DNA of 23,899 nucleotides from a virus. Both the position numbers and the translations under genes were made by a program. This document shows, one piece after another, positions 7,236 through 16,950 of the stretch (its first letter is position 1; each line of letters opens with the position of its first letter). The notes beneath the pieces were generated by a model. It had not been told where the DNA came from, did not search any database, and saw nothing but the letters and a program-made list of their open reading frames with translations. The DNA lies in IMG/VR virus record IMGVR_UViG_3300030104_000251, positions 1-23,899 of that record; one strand, 5' to 3'.

Positions 7236-8195
7236 ATGAGAAAAATACCTGGAGAAAATTTAACCACAAACGGTAAAGGGACTAAAACTAAAAAGTCCAC
7301 TAGAGGTAAGACAATGTTTGGATACAATGTCTTAGGTTTTGGATCTGGTGGTCCTAACGCAGAATTTATATGTGCATCAGGTGGTACAATAACAACTTCA
7401 GGAAATTTTAAAATACACACTTTTACTGGACCAGGAACTTTTACAGTTAATGCTGTAGGTAATGCATCTGGATCAGAAACTGTTGATTATTTAATTGTAG
7501 CTGGAGGTGGAGGTGGATCTCCAGGACCAAGTGGAGGAAATGCCGGAGGCGGTGGCGCAGGTGGCTTTAGAGCTAGTTCAGGAACTGCATCAGGATGTTA
7601 TACTGCTGGTCCATCACCTGTTGTTGGTCCAGTTTCCGCTTTACCAGTTAGTGCAACTGGTTATCCAATAGTAGTTGGAGGCGGTGGACCTGTTGGAAAA
7701 AATCAAGGATCAACTTCATCCGCATTTTCACTTAGTTCTGCTGGTGGCGGAGGTGGAGCGGCCTCAAGTCAAGGAAATCTTCCAGGTGGAGATGGAGGAT
7801 CAGGCGGTGGAGGTTCTACTCCAGGTGCTAATGGAGGTTCTGGAAATGTACCTCCTGTAAGTCCACCACAAGGAAATGATGCTGGCGGAGGACCAGGCGG
7901 CGGCGGAGGCGGCGGCATAGGTAGTGCAGGTTCAGCTTACGGATTTGCAGGTAGCGGAGGTGAAAGTGTAATTACTGCTTCTCCTGTTTATTATTCTGGT
8001 GGAGGATATGGCGGTGATCAAAGATTTAGTCCAGGCGGACACTCACCCGGACCAAATGGTAGAACAGGAATAGGATCAAATGGAGCTGCTAATACAGGTG
8101 CAGGAGGGTCTGCTGGAGCAGAAAGTCCTGCTCCATCAACAACTGGAGGTAGTGGTGGTTCAGGAATAGTTGTTATAAGGTATAAATATCAATAA
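7236..8195 (+). CDS. Glycine-rich tail-tip / adhesin-like protein
   Basis: This encodes 319 residues from ATG 7236, or 293 from ATG 7314 (MFGYNVLGFGSGG), which also has an SD-like AGAGGTAAG before it. After a short beta start (KIHTFTGPGTFTVNAVG, then VDYLIVAGGGGG) comes a long glycine-rich region with poly-Gly runs and many Pro-Gly pairs (GSPGPSGG, TPGANG, SPGGHSPGPNG). It ends with GGSGIVVIRYKYQ. This is the architecture of glycine-rich receptor-binding domains, where Gly runs pack as polyglycine II helices. It is the likeliest host-recognition protein in the window. The Pro-Gly content makes it a candidate substrate for the hydroxylase-like genes that follow shortly after. Confidence 0.72.
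   Translation: MRKIPGENLTTNGKGTKTKKSTRGKTMFGYNVLGFGSGGPNAEFICASGGTITTSGNFKIHTFTGPGTFTVNAVGNASGSETVDYLIVAGGGGGSPGPSGGNAGGGGAGGFRASSGTASGCYTAGPSPVVGPVSALPVSATGYPIVVGGGGPVGKNQGSTSSAFSLSSAGGGGGAASSQGNLPGGDGGSGGGGSTPGANGGSGNVPPVSPPQGNDAGGGPGGGGGGGIGSAGSAYGFAGSGGESVITASPVYYSGGGYGGDQRFSPGGHSPGPNGRTGIGSNGAANTGAGGSAGAESPAPSTTGGSGGSGIVVIRYKYQ
7302..7310 (+). promoter_or_regulatory. SD-like site for alternative start ATG 7314
   Basis: AGAGGTAAG lies 3 bases before ATG 7314, in frame with the upstream ATG 7236. The 26 residues between the two starts are Lys/Thr/Gly-rich and unlike the rest of the protein. MFGYNVLGFG is the more usual opening for the family style. The upstream start has only a weak AAAAGG nearby. 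Confidence 0.4.
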
Positions 8196-8203
8196 GGAAA
8201 AAT

Positions 8204-8653
8204 ATGGCACATTTTGCAAAAATATCTGAAGAAAACCTAGTACTACAAGTTTTAACACTTGATAATAAAGACATGTTAAACGCTGATGGTGTTGAAGTTG
8301 AATCGATAGGTCAACAGTATTTAGAAACACACAATAACTGGCCTGCAGAAATGTGGATTCAAACATCTTACAATACATATAACAATCAACATAATTTAGG
8401 TGGAACACCTTTTAGAGGTAATTACGCAGGCATTGGTTATGAATGGGATAACGATAATCAAATCTTTTGGCCTCAAAAACCATATGCATCTTGGTTAAAA
8501 GATATGACTACAGTTAGTTGGAAATCACCAATTGGCGATGCTCCAGCATTAACAGCTGAACAACAATCACAAAATACAGCTGATACTCATGCTTGGGAAT
8601 ATATTTGGAATGAATCAGGACAGACTTGGGACTTGACAGATTATAAAGCATAA
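8204..8653 (+). CDS. Conserved tail-associated protein (MAHFAKI type)
   Basis: This encodes 149 residues, with AAGGA before the ATG. The opening MAHFAKISEENLVLQVLTLD and the middle TPFRGNYAGIGYEWDNDNQIF, PQKPYASW and EYIWNESGQTWDL match a protein style common in marine cyanophages and pelagiphages, next to tail fibre genes. Aromatic residues are abundant (Trp and Tyr), as in carbohydrate-binding surfaces. No catalytic residues are recognised. From its place directly after the adhesin-like gene it may be a fibre accessory or chaperone-like protein. The function is unknown. Confidence 0.65.
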   Translation: MAHFAKISEENLVLQVLTLDNKDMLNADGVEVESIGQQYLETHNNWPAEMWIQTSYNTYNNQHNLGGTPFRGNYAGIGYEWDNDNQIFWPQKPYASWLKDMTTVSWKSPIGDAPALTAEQQSQNTADTHAWEYIWNESGQTWDLTDYKA

Positions 8654-8671: not shown

Positions 8672-9175
8672 ATGCAGAAGAAAGTATTAAGTGAACAAGC
8701 ATTATATTATGGTGATGTTTCAATGCCAAAAGGTTTTGAAATAGACAGACATAAATTATCTACAGATACCTTACAATCACAAATTCAAAATAAAGAATTT
8801 CCATTTTCTAGGACTTGGGATATGTTAACTACTTATATAAGAGATCATATAAATTTAGAGTATAATTTTCAATTAGTTAATAAACAAACATGGGGTAATT
8901 TTTATAAACCTAAAGAAACAACAATTCCATTACTTAATATTGATCCAGTAGATTTGCGAAACTCACCAGACTTTACTTTATTGTATGGTGTAGAAGTTAA
9001 AGACTGCATGGTTAGAATACATTATGAAGATAACAGAAGAAAAGGAAGATCATGGGATATGTCTTTGACTAATAATCAGTTTATTATGTTTCCATCAACT
9101 AATATGTATTATTTAATTAATAATCAAAAGGATAATTTAAATTTCGTACAAACAATAACGTATGAATATATCTAA
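8672..9175 (+). CDS. Degenerate double-stranded beta-helix protein beside oxygenases, no metal ligands seen
   Basis: This encodes 167 residues. No clear ribosome binding site is seen. The start is GFEIDRHKLSTDTLQSQIQN, followed by a helical segment and the conserved-looking IPLLNIDPVDLRNSPDFTLL. The C-terminal end (VRIHYEDNRRKGRSWDMS, then NQFIMFPSTNMYYLINN and LNFVQTITYEYI) parallels the last strands of the neighbouring oxygenases, where FPS is followed by the distal His and Arg. Here the His position is Tyr, and there is no HxD motif. It therefore probably has the fold without iron-dependent catalysis, or is a divergent partner. It overlaps the next gene by 14 bases, which implies coupled synthesis. 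Confidence 0.55.
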   Translation: MQKKVLSEQALYYGDVSMPKGFEIDRHKLSTDTLQSQIQNKEFPFSRTWDMLTTYIRDHINLEYNFQLVNKQTWGNFYKPKETTIPLLNIDPVDLRNSPDFTLLYGVEVKDCMVRIHYEDNRRKGRSWDMSLTNNQFIMFPSTNMYYLINNQKDNLNFVQTITYEYI

Positions 9176-9794
9176 TTACTATTGGTATTTTAAATCTGCA
9201 TTAACACCTAGATTTTGTGATGAAGTAATTAAATATGCTAATAATCAAAAAGAAGTTATGGCAAGAACTGGTAGTTATGGAAATAGACCATTAAATAAAC
9301 AAGAAGTATTAAATTTAAAAAAAAAAAGAAACTCTGATTTAGTATGGTTAAATGACACCTGGATATATAAAGAACTACATCCTTTTGTGCATGAAGCAAA
9401 TAGAGCAGCTGGTTGGAATTTTGATTGGGAAAGATCTGAATCTTGTCAGTTTACAAAATATAAATTAAATCAATATTATGATTGGCATTGTGATAGTTGG
9501 GATAAACCTTATGATAGACCAAATGATCCAGAGCACGAAAAAATTAGAAAACTATCTATGACTTGTCAGTTAACAGATGGTTCAGAATACAAAGGTGGTG
9601 AATTAGAATTTGATTTTAGAAATTATGACCCACATATGAGAGATGAATCAAAACATAGAATACAATGTAAAGAAATATTACCTAAAGGATCTATTATTGT
9701 ATTTCCTTCATTTGTATGGCATAGAGTTAAACCAGTAACTGCTGGCACAAGATACAGTCTTGTTGTTTGGCATTTAGGAAAACCATTTAGATAA
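9162..9794 (+). CDS. 2-oxoglutarate/Fe(II)-dependent oxygenase, prolyl-4-hydroxylase-like
   Basis: This encodes 210 residues. It carries the full facial-triad pattern: H109-C-D111 in YYDWHCDSWD, distal His187 in FPSFVWHRV, and Arg197 in AGTRYSLVVW as the expected 2-oxoglutarate carboxylate ligand. KGGELEFDF between them is a typical strand of prolyl-hydroxylase-like members. Length is usual for a single-domain enzyme. The reaction would be hydroxylation with 2-oxoglutarate and O2, giving succinate and CO2. The substrate is not shown. It starts inside the preceding gene and shares TAATG with the next. An 11-A run lies in the coding sequence at 9317-9327. This is the clearest active enzyme of the block. 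Confidence 0.8.
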   Translation: MNISNYYWYFKSALTPRFCDEVIKYANNQKEVMARTGSYGNRPLNKQEVLNLKKKRNSDLVWLNDTWIYKELHPFVHEANRAAGWNFDWERSESCQFTKYKLNQYYDWHCDSWDKPYDRPNDPEHEKIRKLSMTCQLTDGSEYKGGELEFDFRNYDPHMRDESKHRIQCKEILPKGSIIVFPSFVWHRVKPVTAGTRYSLVVWHLGKPFR

Positions 9795-10426
9795 TGTATT
9801 TAAATAATTATTTTAATACAACAATATGGTTTGAACAAAAACTTGACTGTCTTAAAGTATTGAATAAAGCTTCTAACAAATATATTAAAGAAGCAAAGAA
9901 TAAAGAAAAAAAATATATAAAAGAATATGGTGACTTTGGACGATCATTTCATTCAAAAACTTTATTAATGGACAATGATTTTTTAGATTTTAAAAATTAT
10001 ATTGGTCAAAAATCTTGGGAATATTTAGATCATCAAGGTTATGATATGACTCAATATACAACTATGTTTTCTGAAATGTGGGTTCAAGAATTTGCTAAAA
10101 AAGGTGGTGGTCATCACTCTGCACACATACATTGGAATTGCCATGTATCAGGTTTTTATTTTTTAAAATGTAGTGATAAAACATCATATCCAATATTTCA
10201 TGAACCACGAATAGGAGCACGTGTTACAAAATTAAAAATGAAACCAGATAGAAAAGGTATATGGGGTGGAGAAGAACTTATAAACTTTAGACCTACACCA
10301 GGTGCATTAATTATATTTCCAGGGTTCTTGGAACACGAGTTTGCAGTAGATCATGGAATAGAACCATTTAGATTTATACATTGGAACATACAAGCTGTTC
10401 CAAAAGAAATGGCTAAAGATGTTTAG
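9794..10426 (+). CDS. Putative 2OG-Fe(II) oxygenase, HxH variant
   Basis: This encodes 210 residues. The core reads HIHWNCHVSGFYFL (H111, H113) ... IFHEPRIGAR ... GALIIFPGFLEHEFAV (H181) ... PFRFIHWNIQ (R193). This follows the 2OG-FeII_Oxy_5-type pattern, where an H-x-H precedes SGxYYL and an FPS/FPG-x-L-x-H strand follows. The usual HxD acidic ligand is not at the standard place. Asp/Glu in the HEPR segment or a two-His arrangement may serve instead. The N-terminal 90 residues are helical and Lys-rich. It shares TAATG with the upstream enzyme and 8 bases with the downstream one. The substrate is unknown. Confidence 0.65.
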   Translation: MYLNNYFNTTIWFEQKLDCLKVLNKASNKYIKEAKNKEKKYIKEYGDFGRSFHSKTLLMDNDFLDFKNYIGQKSWEYLDHQGYDMTQYTTMFSEMWVQEFAKKGGGHHSAHIHWNCHVSGFYFLKCSDKTSYPIFHEPRIGARVTKLKMKPDRKGIWGGEELINFRPTPGALIIFPGFLEHEFAVDHGIEPFRFIHWNIQAVPKEMAKDV

Positions 10427-10976
10427 TATTTTTAGTTCTTATGTTAAAGAAGATTTTTTTACTTTAGATACTAAAAAAATAAAAAAAGAAATCTTAAATA
10501 TGAAAATAAAAAACAAAGGAAAAATAATAAGTAATTATGGTGGTTGGCAAAGTAAAAATTTTTTAAAAATAAATCAAAACTTTAAAGATTTATTTAATCA
10601 AATAAATTTATCTGTAAAAGAAGTAGAAAAAAATTTAGGTTTAGAAAAAAAATTATTTTTAAATTATTATTGGTGCAATATAAATTCTCTAAGTTGTTTT
10701 AATAGACCTCATAATCATTTAGGCGCTGTAATATCAGGAGTATATTATGTAAGCACTCCAAAAAATTCTGGTAATCTTATTTTTGAAAACTATGATAGTA
10801 ATAAACACATAACATATAAATTTGTAAAAAATTATAATGAATATAATTCTACAAAATGGACTATTTTACCTAAAGAAAATTTATGTGTTTTATTTCCATC
10901 TTATTTATTTCATTATGTTGAACCTAATTTAAATAAAAAAGAAAGGGTAAGTATAAGTTTTAATTATGGCTTTTAA
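10419..10976 (+). CDS. Putative 2OG-Fe(II) oxygenase, HxH variant, very AT-rich gene
   Basis: This encodes 185 residues. Key parts are RPHNHLGAVISGVYYV (H98, H100), NLIFENYD, and NLCVLFPSYLFHYVEPN (H165) with ERVSISFN (R176). This is the classic outline of the 2OG-FeII_Oxy_5-type family, also with H-x-H rather than H-x-D. The N-terminal 90 residues are rich in Lys and Asn. By hand count about 19% of bases from 10441 to the stop are G or C, clearly lower than its neighbours, so it may have been acquired separately. It overlaps the gene before by 8 bases and the gene after by 11. The substrate is unknown. Confidence 0.68.
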   Translation: MFSIFSSYVKEDFFTLDTKKIKKEILNMKIKNKGKIISNYGGWQSKNFLKINQNFKDLFNQINLSVKEVEKNLGLEKKLFLNYYWCNINSLSCFNRPHNHLGAVISGVYYVSTPKNSGNLIFENYDSNKHITYKFVKNYNEYNSTKWTILPKENLCVLFPSYLFHYVEPNLNKKERVSISFNYGF

Positions 10977-11589
10977 GAAGAAAAAATATACAGTTGTTCG
11001 TCAAGCAATATCAAAAGACCTTGCGGCTTTTGTTGCAAATTATTTTTGTATGCAAAAACAAGTTTATGATACTTGTATGCAAGCAAGATATTTTTCACCT
11101 TTTGAAAATATATTAGGTCATTATGAAAATAACACTGAACAAATACCAAACACCTATAGTCAATATGCAAATATAGCTATGGAAACTTTAATGTTAAAAT
11201 GTCAACCTCAAATGGAAAAAGTAACAGGTCTTAAATTATATCCAGCTTATACTTACGCAAGAATTTATAAAAAAGGTGATGAATTAAAAAGACACAAAGA
11301 TAGATTTAGCTGTGAAATATCAACTACTATGAATTTAGGTGGTGATGACTGGCCGATATATTTAGAGCCATCTGGAGAAACTGGTAAGAAAGGCATTAAA
11401 GTAGATTTAAAACAAGGAGATATGTTAGTGTATTCTGGTTGTGAATTAGAACATTGGAGAAAACCATTTAAAGGTAAAGAATGCGTGCAAGTATTTCTTC
11501 ATTATAATAATCGTAAAACTTTAGGATCAAAAGATAATATATTTGATAAACGTCTACATTTAGGTCTTCCATCTTGGTTTAAAAAATAG
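10966..11589 (+). CDS. 2OG-Fe(II) oxygenase-like protein
   Basis: This encodes 207 residues. H110-K-D112 (ELKRHKDRFSCEIS) gives the HxD pair. H163 in GCELEHWRKPF is the distal ligand, and KECVQVFLHYN is the last strand, with Lys171 or Gln175 where Arg is usual. The segment TTMNLGGDDWPIYLEP and the GDMLVYSG turn before the distal His fit the double-stranded beta helix. This type is seen repeatedly in marine phages and differs from the prolyl-hydroxylase-like member upstream. It ends the oxygenase block, with a 58-base AT-rich gap before the plug protein gene. Activity is likely from the ligand set, and the substrate is not known. Confidence 0.72.
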   Translation: MAFKKKKYTVVRQAISKDLAAFVANYFCMQKQVYDTCMQARYFSPFENILGHYENNTEQIPNTYSQYANIAMETLMLKCQPQMEKVTGLKLYPAYTYARIYKKGDELKRHKDRFSCEISTTMNLGGDDWPIYLEPSGETGKKGIKVDLKQGDMLVYSGCELEHWRKPFKGKECVQVFLHYNNRKTLGSKDNIFDKRLHLGLPSWFKK

Positions 11590-11647: not shown

Positions 11648-13858
11648 ATGCTACAAAAAATAGGTTTTCAGCCAGGTATAAATAAACAAATCTCAGAAAC
11701 TACAGCAGAAAGTCAATGGGTAGACTGTGATAATGTTAGATTTAGATATGGATCACCAGAAAAAATAGGTGGTTGGAATCAATTAGGAAATGTTAATGAA
11801 AACGAACTTACTGGAGCAGGACGTGGACTTCATCATTTTGTTAATAGTTTAGGTAGAAGATATGCAATAATCGGCACAAACAGAATTTTATACGCATACT
11901 CTGGAGGTGTATTTTATGACATACACCCTATTAAATCTACAACAACGCTTACAAGTGCATTTAGCACGACTAACGGATCACCAACTGTTACAATAACTTT
12001 CTCATCTGGTCACGGTATCAATCCACAAGATATAGTTTTATTAGATAGTTTTAGTTCAGCAACTAATTCTAATTATAGTGCATCTGATTTTGACGATAAA
12101 AAATTTATGGTGACATCTGTACCAACAACTACAACTATTACAATTACAATGCCATCAAATGAATCGGGTTCTGGTGCAACAACATCAGGAGGTATTAGAG
12201 TACAACATTATTTTCCTGTTGGATCTGCTGTTCAAGAAAAAGGATTTGGATGGGGCCTTGGATCTTGGAGTGGAGAATCATCTTCCGCTGTAACTACAAC
12301 TTTAAACGGTGCTTTAGGTGATAATGCATTTGGAACAGGTGGTTCTGGAACTTCTATTGTTTTAGCTGATGCAACACAATTTCCTAGCACAGGAACTAAT
12401 TTTATAAAAGTAGGAACAGAAGAAATATCTTATACAGGAGTCACAGGTGGAACTACATTAACAGGTATTACAAGAGCTGTTAGAGGAACAACAAGAGCGG
12501 CACATAGTGATGGTGCAACTGTAACTAATACTACGGACTTTGTTGCTTGGGGTGAAGCAGCATCAGGTGACTTGGTATTAGAGCCCGGTATGTGGTCACT
12601 GGATAATTTTGGTGACAAAGCAATTTGTTTAATTCACGATAGTGCATGTTTTGAGTGGGACTCTAGTTTATCAAATGCTACGGATACAAGATGCACGATT
12701 ATAACAGGAGCACCAACAGCATCAAGACATATGGTTGTATCAACACCGGATCGTCACTTAGTTTTTTATGGAACAGAAACAACAATAGGAAATACAGCAA
12801 CACAAGATGATATGTTTATTAGATTTTCAGATCAAGAAGATATTAATACTTATACACCAACAGCAACCAATACTGCTGGTACACAAAGACTAGCTGACGG
12901 ATCACAGATTAGAGGAGCTATCAGAGGTAGAGATGCAATTTATGTTTGGACTGATACAGCATTATTTACACAACGTTTTGTTGGTCAACCATTTACGTTT
13001 GCCTTTTCACAAGTTGGAACCAACTGTGGACTTGCAGGACAGAATGCATGCGTAGAAGTTGATGGTGCTGCTTATTGGATGTCAGAAAATGGTTTTTTTA
13101 GATATGCTGGTAAATTAGAATCATTACCATGTTTAGTAGAAGATCATGTTTATGATGATATAAATTTAGAATCTGGTAACCAAATGGTATCTGCTGGATT
13201 AAACAATTTGTTTGGTGAAGTTATATGGTTTTATCCAAGTTCAACATCATCTGTTGTAAATAAAATGGTTGCATATAATTATTTTGATTCATCACCACAA
13301 AGACCAGTATGGACTGTTGGCACATTAGCTCGAACTATGTGGCAAGATTCTGCAGTATTTACTAAACCACACGCTTTAGAATACGATGCATCAACAGATA
13401 CATCTTTTGATGTTGTAGGCAACACAGAAGGTAGAACAGCCTACTATGAACACGAAACAGGAACAGATCAAAATAAAAACGGAACAATTACAGCTATTAC
13501 ATCAAACATATCATCAGGAGATTTTGATATTACACAAGCAAGATCAGCACAAGGACAACAAACTGGTGTTGCAACATTTAAAGGTGATGGAGAGTTTTTA
13601 ATGAAGATAAGAAGATTTATACCTGATTTTATATCTCAAACTGGTAATACACAAATTACATTAGAAGTTAGAAATTTTCCGAATGACACACAAGCTAGTT
13701 CTGCACTTGGACCTTTTACTGTAACATCATCTACACAAAAAATAGATACACGTGCAAGAGCTAGAGCTATTGCATTAAAAGTAGCAAATACAGGTGCATC
13801 TCAAAGTTGGAAACTAGGAACTTTTAGATTAGATATACAACCGGACGGTAGAAGATAA
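11648..13858 (+). CDS. Packaged-DNA stabilisation / head-closure protein (P22 gp10-like)
   Basis: This encodes 736 residues. The N-terminus (GFQPGINKQISETTAESQWV, then CDNVRFRYGSPEKIGGW) is the hallmark opening of the gp10-like stabilisation proteins that sit below the adaptor and plug the tail. Two inserted beta segments are visible. One is at residues about 98-185 (AFSTTNGSPTVTITFSSGHG). The other is at about 220-295 (FIKVGTEEISYTGVTGG, then ITRAVRGTTRAAHSDGA). The remaining sequence is propeller-like, with blades such as RHLVFYGTE, DAIYVWTDTALFTQRFVG and AAYWMSENGFFRYAG, ending in RLDIQPDGRR. The usual P22 protein is shorter, and the two insertions explain the extra length. It overlaps the next start by TAATG. 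Confidence 0.75.
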   Translation: MLQKIGFQPGINKQISETTAESQWVDCDNVRFRYGSPEKIGGWNQLGNVNENELTGAGRGLHHFVNSLGRRYAIIGTNRILYAYSGGVFYDIHPIKSTTTLTSAFSTTNGSPTVTITFSSGHGINPQDIVLLDSFSSATNSNYSASDFDDKKFMVTSVPTTTTITITMPSNESGSGATTSGGIRVQHYFPVGSAVQEKGFGWGLGSWSGESSSAVTTTLNGALGDNAFGTGGSGTSIVLADATQFPSTGTNFIKVGTEEISYTGVTGGTTLTGITRAVRGTTRAAHSDGATVTNTTDFVAWGEAASGDLVLEPGMWSLDNFGDKAICLIHDSACFEWDSSLSNATDTRCTIITGAPTASRHMVVSTPDRHLVFYGTETTIGNTATQDDMFIRFSDQEDINTYTPTATNTAGTQRLADGSQIRGAIRGRDAIYVWTDTALFTQRFVGQPFTFAFSQVGTNCGLAGQNACVEVDGAAYWMSENGFFRYAGKLESLPCLVEDHVYDDINLESGNQMVSAGLNNLFGEVIWFYPSSTSSVVNKMVAYNYFDSSPQRPVWTVGTLARTMWQDSAVFTKPHALEYDASTDTSFDVVGNTEGRTAYYEHETGTDQNKNGTITAITSNISSGDFDITQARSAQGQQTGVATFKGDGEFLMKIRRFIPDFISQTGNTQITLEVRNFPNDTQASSALGPFTVTSSTQKIDTRARARAIALKVANTGASQSWKLGTFRLDIQPDGRR

Positions 13859-15537: not shown

Positions 15538-16950
15538 ATGGCCATTTCAAGATCACAACAACCAAGACAAATGTACGGACTAGGGAGCTTCGTAAAGAAG
15601 GTAACTAGAAAAATAACTAAACCTATAACTAAAGTAGCTCAAAAAATAGTACCAAAAGAAATAGCAGGTATTATGAGAACTGCTGCACCTTTTTTGCCAC
15701 CAGGATATAGAGAAGCAGCATATCTATTAGGTACAGCAAAACAAACTGGTAGAATTAGTCCTGTAGATTTAGCATTAGTTCTTGCACCACAAGTTGGAAG
15801 AATGAAAGTTGGTGATAGTGGTTTAACTGTGAAACAACAACTTGGTGCTTTGGATGTGCCTTTTTCAGATAAAACTTTAGGAGAGTTTTTTGTAGGAGCA
15901 CCAGCAGACTCAGGAATAGATGTAAAGACAGTAGCAGGACCAGTTCCAGGAGCTTCAGGATCTGCAACTGGCACAGCAACATTAGGAGCAAGTGAGGCAA
16001 CATCAGGTTTATTTGGTAAAGGTGGAGAAATGTTTCAACTTGGTAAAGGAACTTTACCTGGAACTGGAGGAGAAGCAGCAAAACAATCGTTTGGTATAAT
16101 GGATACAGGAGCAGGACAAACTTTATTTGGACAAGCTGGAGATCCTACAAAAGTAAGTAAGGCTAAAGTATTTGGTTATGGAACAAGTTTGTATTCATTA
16201 CTAACAGCGGCTAAAACTCCTGAAGAAGCAGGAAATTTATTAGTTGAACAAACAGGTAATTCTGATGACTATGAAAGAGGTTATCAAATGTTTTCAGTAT
16301 TAAAACCAGGTATATTTGATATTCCAGAAGAATTTAGATTAACTAAATCTGGAGGCGGTGCAAGAATTCTACCAGTTAAAGAAGGTGGTTTGATAAGAAC
16401 TAATTATGCAATAGGTAGTGATGACAAACCAGTATTACCAGATGACCCAACAAAACCAATAAATCCTTTTGCACCAAAACCAATTAAACCATTAGAAGAT
16501 AATAAAATGGCTAGTGGTTTTGGAAGTTATAAAGATTTTATAGAGTCAACAGGTGACGAGGAACTTATGGATCTTTATATAGAAGGTTTAAGTTCAGGAG
16601 ATTTTACAAAGTTATTAGATGCATTAAAAAGAAAAGGTTATCAAAGTAGAGATCTAGCTGCAGGTGGTAGAGTAGGGTTGGCTCTTGGATCAATGCCCAC
16701 GGCCCAAGAATCAGGCTTAGGAGGGCTTCCAATTGAGGCAGATATGAGGTATACAGGAGGCTTCATGCCATACGGCGCAAAAGAAAAAGCCGATGACGTG
16801 CCTGCTAGATTAAGCAAAAATGAATTTGTATTTACTGCTGATGCTGTTAGAGCAGCAGGTGGAGGCAGTGTTAATGAGGGTGCTAAAAAAATGTATCAAA
16901 CAATGAAAAAATTAGAAGCAAAACCTGAAGCAAAAGGAATGGTAGCATAA
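15538..16950 (+). CDS. Large internal-virion-type protein with KDFIESTGDEEL module and DDVPARLS motif
   Basis: This encodes 470 residues. The N-terminal 60 residues are basic and amphipathic (FVKKVTRKITKPITKVAQKI). The middle is Gly/Ala-rich with no clear fold. Residues 329-379 repeat the module of the 133-residue protein at 2447-2848, beginning right after an internal Met324 (MASGFGSYKDFIES). This suggests that a once separate gene was fused here. Next is GGRVGLALGSMP, then the conserved C-terminal motif KADDVPARLSKNEFVFTADA, which recalls the terminal segment of tape-measure-like proteins, and a helical end. No enzyme motif is seen. It starts after a short gap and shares TAATG with the next gene. 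Likely ejected or internal, but this is inferred from position. Confidence 0.6.
   Translation: MAISRSQQPRQMYGLGSFVKKVTRKITKPITKVAQKIVPKEIAGIMRTAAPFLPPGYREAAYLLGTAKQTGRISPVDLALVLAPQVGRMKVGDSGLTVKQQLGALDVPFSDKTLGEFFVGAPADSGIDVKTVAGPVPGASGSATGTATLGASEATSGLFGKGGEMFQLGKGTLPGTGGEAAKQSFGIMDTGAGQTLFGQAGDPTKVSKAKVFGYGTSLYSLLTAAKTPEEAGNLLVEQTGNSDDYERGYQMFSVLKPGIFDIPEEFRLTKSGGGARILPVKEGGLIRTNYAIGSDDKPVLPDDPTKPINPFAPKPIKPLEDNKMASGFGSYKDFIESTGDEELMDLYIEGLSSGDFTKLLDALKRKGYQSRDLAAGGRVGLALGSMPTAQESGLGGLPIEADMRYTGGFMPYGAKEKADDVPARLSKNEFVFTADAVRAAGGGSVNEGAKKMYQTMKKLEAKPEAKGMVA
16522..16674 (+). repeat. Second copy of the KDFIESTGDEEL coding module
   Basis: Bases 16522-16674 code for residues 329-379 of the 470-residue protein and correspond to 2459-2611. 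Over the first 69 bases, about 56 are identical by hand alignment, and differences fall mostly at third codon positions. About 35 of the 51 residues are the same. This indicates an intragenomic duplication or exchange followed by divergence under selection on protein sequence. Confidence 0.75.

Follow-up and report, generated by a model that had tools for sequence, protein, structure and literature searches.

What does a run of five overlapping oxygenase-fold genes do in the middle of the virion genes of a marine phage? The question is raised by the virus record IMGVR_UViG_3300030104_000251 of IMG/VR, whose positions 1 to 23,899 form the stretch analysed here (23.9 kb, hereafter the window), and in which five open reading frames (ORFs), labelled A to E in order, occupy positions 8672-9175, 9162-9794, 9794-10426, 10419-10976, and 10966-11589 of the plus strand, as do the tail and "plug" genes on either side described below. 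Among isolates, Pelagibacter phage HTVC023P and phage 023Pt_psg01 come closest, and the window is a fragment of an HTVC023P-type pelagiphage with the block in its virion module. Phages of this type infect SAR11, the most abundant bacteria of the ocean, and are themselves among the most abundant phages described there (PMC9599517). The explanation that we find best is that the block is a late, modular tailoring cassette that would modify a product of the ribosome, most likely the tail-fibre adhesin encoded next to it, and we judge the case for it to be about evenly balanced.

A near-constant core with exchangeable cargo

All five ORFs begin with ATG and were recovered at the starts originally given, all on one strand. 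They do overlap, by 14 bp (A/B), 1 bp (B/C), 8 bp (C/D), and 11 bp (D/E), a range of 1-14 bp rather than the 4-14 bp first given. The A/B overlap is exactly 14 bp in 82 of the 86 relatives without cargo between the two genes, and its retention suggests coupled translation; the idea that the genes are translated together is thus favoured, short of proof. A scan for promoters and terminators gave no excess over shuffled sequences. Median ratios of nonsynonymous to synonymous substitution (dN/dS) of 0.15 for A, 0.185 for B, 0.20 for C, and 0.11 for E indicate purifying selection on the core genes, and the block is therefore no chance ORF structure.

The block had been called unusual, a description that did not hold. 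At least 600 matches were obtained in each of two IMG/VR searches, so the block is common rather than rare, cyanomyoviruses (S-RSM4) have blocks of similar or larger size, and co-located 2-oxoglutarate (2OG) oxygenase genes in these phages were already reported in 2022 (PMC9599517). We counted core and cargo genes in the 76 contigs in which the A-to-E block is complete. In every one of them all genes of the block (3-7) lie on one strand; 35 blocks are plain A-B-C-E, and nearly all of the remainder, in which C is missing three times, have between one and three additional genes in the slots A|B, B|C, or C|E. Gene D recurs in its C|E slot in just two relatives. A-B-C-E is therefore a near-constant, linked core and D is interchangeable cargo, so that the expected conservation of order applies to four genes, whereas the five do not form one conserved unit. 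The other cargo includes about a dozen unrelated 2OG oxygenases, a tryptophan halogenase (PF04820), a NodU-like carbamoyltransferase, and sulfotransferases. In cyanomyoviruses, too, E has such enzymes around it, and in S-RSM4 an eleven-gene run made up largely of these families lies between a tail fibre, accompanied by the 149-amino-acid tail-region protein that we call pre, and the neck gene g13. A dedicated hydroxylation system, as originally envisaged, is thus too narrow a description: a modification system is the best reading, but halogenase, sulfotransferase, and carbamoyltransferase genes fill the same slots as the oxygenases.

The sister phage HTVC027P has three oxygenase genes of different families at the same place on the opposite strand (L006:6295-7956). 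Genes annotated as "DNA endonuclease V" or "DNA endonuclease" in three further loci (L002:6980-7462, L220:10390-11380, and L216:8238-8753) are likely, for the most part, misnamed 2OG-oxygenase relatives, the one in L216 scoring above the PF13640 cut-off.

Oxygenase folds, the identity of gene E, and its coupling to gene B

By their profile matches, B, C, and D are relatives of curated 2OG-Fe(II) oxygenases. Core gene B (9162-9794) matches PF13640 at 57 bits (cut-off 27) and phrog_61 at 9e-39, its nearest relative in the PDB is the PKHD hydroxylase PiuC, and its motif is H109/D111...H187...R197xS, with the Fe-ligand codons of His109-x-Asp111 at 9486-9494, the distal His187 codon at 9720-9722, and the Arg197 codon at 9750-9752. 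These HxD...H...RxS residues, assigned from sequence and conservation, are invariant in 20 relatives, and the two His ligands are present in 155 of 155 members of the wide family. Core gene C (9794-10426; phrog_81) is of the PF13759 type (45.8 bits, cut-off 27; TIGR02466 at 57.4 bits, below its cut-off of 62.5) and is closest to 3bvc in the PDB (2.9e-4); its ligands are conserved in the motif H111xH113...H181...R193, encoded at 10124-10132 (His111-x-His113) and 10334-10336 (His181). The cargo gene D (10419-10976) belongs to PF13759 (81.2 bits, cut-off 27) and TIGR02466 (110 bits, cut-off 62.5), carries H98xH100...H165...R176xS, and is nearest to 2rg4 (6e-7). The block thus holds genes of at least three types and no simple tandem copies, which agrees with the original prediction, as do the ligand motifs seen in B, C, D, and E and their absence from A. 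The Pfam search that it proposed placed B, C, and D above curated cut-offs and left A and E without a Pfam family.

Core gene A (8672-9175) is nevertheless predicted by its structural model to have the double-stranded beta-helix fold of the 2OG-Fe(II) oxygenase superfamily. Its AlphaFold2 (AF2) model is of medium confidence (predicted local distance difference test, pLDDT, 62.6) and is matched by Foldseek in the PDB to PHD2 and to 3bvc and 2rg4, both PF13759-type structures (probability 1.00, E 1.3e-4 to 4.9e-4, TM about 0.6), and the family profile of A matches that of C at 97.6% in a profile-profile comparison with deep alignments. No conserved H/D/E metal triad is seen in the family alignment, no NCBIfam or PHROG match of note was obtained, and the A profile found nothing when searched by sequence against the PDB. 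Gene A is as constrained as the enzyme genes (dN/dS 0.15). We consider A to be very probably a non-catalytic pseudo-oxygenase, which probably serves as a scaffold or substrate-binding subunit.

Core gene E (10966-11589) matches phrog_2954, a family named ferrochelatase in databases and papers. The name can be traced at least to T4-GC 615, listed as "Hyp. with ferrochetalase domain" by Sullivan et al. (2010) (PMC3037559); the P-RSM4 gene PRSM4_049 carries the number 615, and T4-GC 615 is the E family. We reject this name. The ferrochelatase model PF00762 has no match in the window, while it matches 8 of 14 control genomes, and ten E proteins searched against Pfam were matched by no model. Instead, E has an HxD...H triad (His110-x-Asp112 at 11293-11301 and the distal His163 at 11452-11454), identified from sequence and conservation, in which H, D, and H are invariant in 54 of 54 non-redundant E proteins, and with deep alignments its profile matches that of B at 94.6%, HxD aligned on HxD. 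Pairwise profile comparisons made at first with shallow alignments linked neither E nor A to B or C; as the matches became positive only with deeper alignments, controls were added, of which six unrelated families remained below 1%, and the removal of fused proteins left the E-B match at 92.3%. Structure prediction, proposed for each protein, served A better than E: the E model is poor (pLDDT 51.6) and has no significant PDB match, and its best match in BFVD is an unnamed 256-amino-acid protein, the best named one being a Hokovirus 2OG oxygenase (probability 0.80), which offers weak support only. A search of the PDB by sequence with the E profile returned nothing. From its ligands and profile, E appears to be a relative of the 2OG-Fe(II) oxygenase superfamily and remote kin of B, and hence a putative partner oxygenase of the HxD...H Fe(II) double-stranded beta-helix type.

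The reassignment of E bears on the published readings of these genes as auxiliary metabolic genes (AMGs) that tune 2OG/nitrogen, iron, or haem metabolism of the host. A 2OG/nitrogen role was put forward by Sullivan et al. (2010) (PMC3037559), a ferrochelatase partner by Wittmers et al. (2022) (PMC9599517), and a link to iron uptake during infection by HTVC027P in a further study (PMC12753301). Such a role seems improbable to us, given that E is no ferrochelatase, that many specific, non-orthologous enzymes in one operon would be a poor means of lowering 2OG, and that non-2OG cargo enzymes occupy the same slots. Enzymes for hydroxylation, hypermodification, or repair of DNA or RNA are the least probable of the alternatives. 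Phage 2OG enzymes do include AlkB-like ones (PMC7824862), and an E homologue of Methylomonas weakly resembles PF13532 (22.4 bits, below the cut-off of 31), but the window proteins match no nucleic-acid-oxidising family, and the tail-module location and the pairing with sulfotransferase and halogenase genes fit such a function poorly.

Gene neighbourhood indicates that E and B work together. A B-type gene lies within three ORFs of E in 68 of 80 diverse E loci, and in 28 of the 80 the two are joined in one protein, always with E at the N-terminus; a further E-B fusion is found in cyanophage S-SCSM1. B stands directly beside E in P-RSM4, S-CAM8, and Mosig, and in the same block as E in HTVC008M, S-RSM4, and HTVC033P. 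In Mosig, a SAR11 phage (L005:10984-12220), the oxygenase run is followed by genes annotated as haem oxygenase and phycocyanobilin:ferredoxin oxidoreductase.

Possible ribosomal substrates and the neighbouring tail genes

On what would these enzymes act? A search of 84,980 species genomes of bacteria and archaea yielded 22 loci with an E homologue, a few of which (L359 and L369 among them) look viral. Five of the 22 also hold lasso-peptide genes (L372, L373, L364, L370, and L371; hosts Methylomonas, two Methylobacter, an erythrobacter, and an acidobacterium), a coincidence with a chance of 4e-6 by a rough estimate that assumes two such clusters per genome. The lasso-type genes encode an isopeptide-forming cyclase, a B2 leader protease, or an associated nucleotidyltransferase, the cyclase being named on an NCBIfam score that falls short of its cut-off (262 bits versus 525) and B2 on one that exceeds it (65 versus 33). 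In L372 and L373, E and a B-type oxygenase are adjacent to each other and next to the lasso-peptide genes, and E near such genes, with B in these two loci, is possibly an undescribed tailoring pair of lasso-peptide clusters. As hydroxylation of a lasso precursor by an Fe/2OG enzyme, CanE, is proven (PMC9266682), the location of the cellular E genes points to ribosomal polypeptides as substrates.

The same evidence could speak for a phage-borne pathway like those of ribosomally synthesized and post-translationally modified peptides (RiPPs), in which the enzymes would act on a small secreted peptide and not on a virion protein. We regard this as more doubtful still than a metabolic role, since no precursor-sized gene is evident in the block, where the overlaps leave no space between genes, and the annotated neighbours include neither a cyclase nor a leader protease or PqqD-like gene. 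Nor is there a lasso precursor, leader protease, or Asn-synthase-like cyclase among the annotated proteins of the window, on the whole of which the respective models were not run. The lack of a precursor-sized gene in the block makes the neighbouring tail proteins the nearest substrate candidates.

The five double-stranded beta-helix-type genes lie, as originally described, between tail genes and the gene of a "plug" protein. Upstream is a glycine-rich tail protein, glyR (7236-8195; PF21722 Gly_rich_2, 51 bits, cut-off 24.3; phrog_2295, 6e-34), a candidate substrate or adhesin, followed by pre (8204-8653; phrog_7759, 1e-31), a candidate substrate or tail-fibre assembly factor; the block is closed by the virion structural/stabilization ("plug") protein phrog_3287 (11648-13858; 1e-93). 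The arrangement is well kept in relatives: pre is directly upstream of A in 113 of 118 loci, the order glyR-pre-A is found in 92 of 99, and phrog_3287 follows E within five genes in each of the 62 relatives in which this could be judged. In addition, pre adjoins E or 2OG genes in P-RSM4, S-RSM4, HTVC008M, and DSL-LC04, and HTVC033P has a match to it of 40% identity. Families of tail-fibre, Gp38 adhesin, and Mtd proteins also occur among the neighbours of divergent E/B blocks. At the 80 diverse E loci, glycine-rich phrog_2295 accounts for 15 of 117 proteins within two genes of the block and 5 of 110 farther away (Fisher p 0.023); both sets were drawn from the same contigs, whose kinship is only partly removed, so p-values here are indicative. 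The glyR gene is single in the window and has one to four tandem copies upstream of pre in relatives L009-L161.

In the tail-tailoring mechanism that we propose, the core would consist of A as a scaffold devoid of ligands, of E and B as the two components of an Fe(II) oxygenase, and of the HxH-type oxygenase C. E+B and C would perform the core oxidations, with A helping in substrate binding and the cargo setting the final chemistry. The enzymes would be made late and alongside the tail-fibre proteins through overlapping translation, and the adhesin would be modified as it is produced. Side chains would be oxidised on the ribosomal substrate, for which the glycine-rich/phrog_7759 adhesin system next to the block is the likeliest candidate, and the modification may change or protect the receptor-binding surface. 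More tentatively, and with the balance of probability against it, we suggest a widespread adhesin-decoration system of phages, in which an E+B core common to bacterial ribosomal-peptide tailoring, a ligand-less scaffold, and swappable cargo would give receptor-binding surfaces a chemical diversity beyond the 20 amino acids.

Several observations weigh against tail-protein tailoring. The usual 2OG-binding RxS was not found in the last strand of E, which has C/Y/H-x-Q at that place, so its use of 2OG is uncertain. The E homologue of Syn30 (L215:5878-6477) has no B in its vicinity and is flanked by genes for a DNA methyltransferase and a clamp loader, the neighbours of cellular E genes also include kinase, glycosyltransferase, and ATP-grasp genes, and phrog_7759 is found also without oxygenases. 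The glycine-rich enrichment is modest, and that of tail-fibre-assembly genes (7 near the block versus 2 farther) is not significant (p 0.10). Pro-Gly occurs in the glycine-rich proteins at 0.88 of expectation, which leaves collagen-type X-Pro-Gly prolyl hydroxylation of the glycine-rich tail protein unsupported, and glyR of the window has no Trp on which a halogenase could act. Finally, the tailoring enzymes among the cargo would fit glycans too.

This last point leads to the strongest competitor, in which the cassette would serve, during infection, to decorate a glycan on the host surface or to produce a modified small molecule, for superinfection exclusion or competition. Carbamoyltransferase (NodU-like), sulfotransferase, and halogenase cargo would suit the tailoring of sugars or small molecules, as Iyer et al. 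(2021) proposed for the cluster of cyanophage S-SSM6a (PMC7824862); glycosyltransferases lie a few genes downstream in HTVC023P and HTVC027P, and glycosyltransferase or kinase neighbours occur at some cellular E loci. We nonetheless consider it unlikely, at perhaps half the weight of tail-protein tailoring, in view of the fixed place of the block in the virion module beside tail-fibre genes in unrelated phages, the lack of scaffold-synthesis or export genes in the block, and the link of cellular E-B to ribosomal-peptide clusters.

Elsewhere in the virion module, two ORFs (2447-2848 and 15538-16950) share a segment like GSxKDFIESTGDEELxDLYxEGL...KGYQ...GGRV, which is found in the small protein encoded by the former and in the C-terminal half of the 470-amino-acid protein encoded by the latter.

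Relation to known systems

Our literature search found nothing direct on tail-fibre hydroxylation in phages by such clusters. The fixed core, the cargo slots, the re-identification of E, the E-B unit and fusion, and the lasso link were likewise not found described in the literature covered, most subscription journals lying outside it. A precedent for a viral enzyme that hydroxylates viral polypeptides is the prolyl 4-hydroxylase of PBCV-1 (Eriksson, 1999, as cited in PMC9301287); that enzyme is a single gene of an algal virus, and the phage tail proteins here are without Pro-Gly enrichment. CanE (PMC9266682) resembles the proposed system as an Fe/2OG enzyme acting on a ribosomal peptide, and cellular E homologues lie near lasso genes; the comparison with B and E concerns function, and in the phage block neither a precursor nor a leader protease or cyclase is seen. 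The ten-gene halogenase/carbamoyltransferase/2OG cluster of the jumbo cyanophage S-SSM6a has the same mix of tailoring enzymes, but secondary-metabolite synthesis or capsule decoration was proposed for it (Iyer et al., 2021; PMC7824862), in contrast to the tail-directed role suggested here.

Among T4-like cyanophages, Sullivan et al. (2010) (PMC3037559) list 2OG, T4-GC 615, PrnA, and carbamoyltransferase gene families, and the S-RSM4 block brings these families together by tail genes in a cluster of the kind described here. They were read as nitrogen/2OG or host genes, and neither an E-B unit nor tail tailoring was proposed in the passages covered. In a time-series study of 2024, only three categories were enriched in seasonal phages, and two of them, phrog61 and phrog2954, are precisely the families of B and E; phrog2954 was treated there as ferrochelatase (PMC11561400). 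Should E be an oxygenase partner of B, both this seasonal signal and the "haem" AMG account change in meaning, and if the adhesin is the substrate, phages would vary host recognition by chemistry as well as by sequence.

The closest precedent is the work of Wittmers et al. (2022) (PMC9599517) on the same phage group and the same genes. That many 2OG genes with "ferrochelatase" partners occur in these phages is already published there: eight non-orthologous 2OG genes were reported, with a phylogeny that could not be analysed, and their co-location and the "ferrochelatase" beside a 2OG gene were noted. In that study the gene order was described as varying, the genes as near each other but not adjacent, and the "ferrochelatase" as a haem enzyme. 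By contrast, we find a near-constant A-B-C-E core with cargo slots that also take non-2OG cargo, in which E appears to be the Fe(II) double-stranded beta-helix partner of B, and A is very probably a pseudo-oxygenase.

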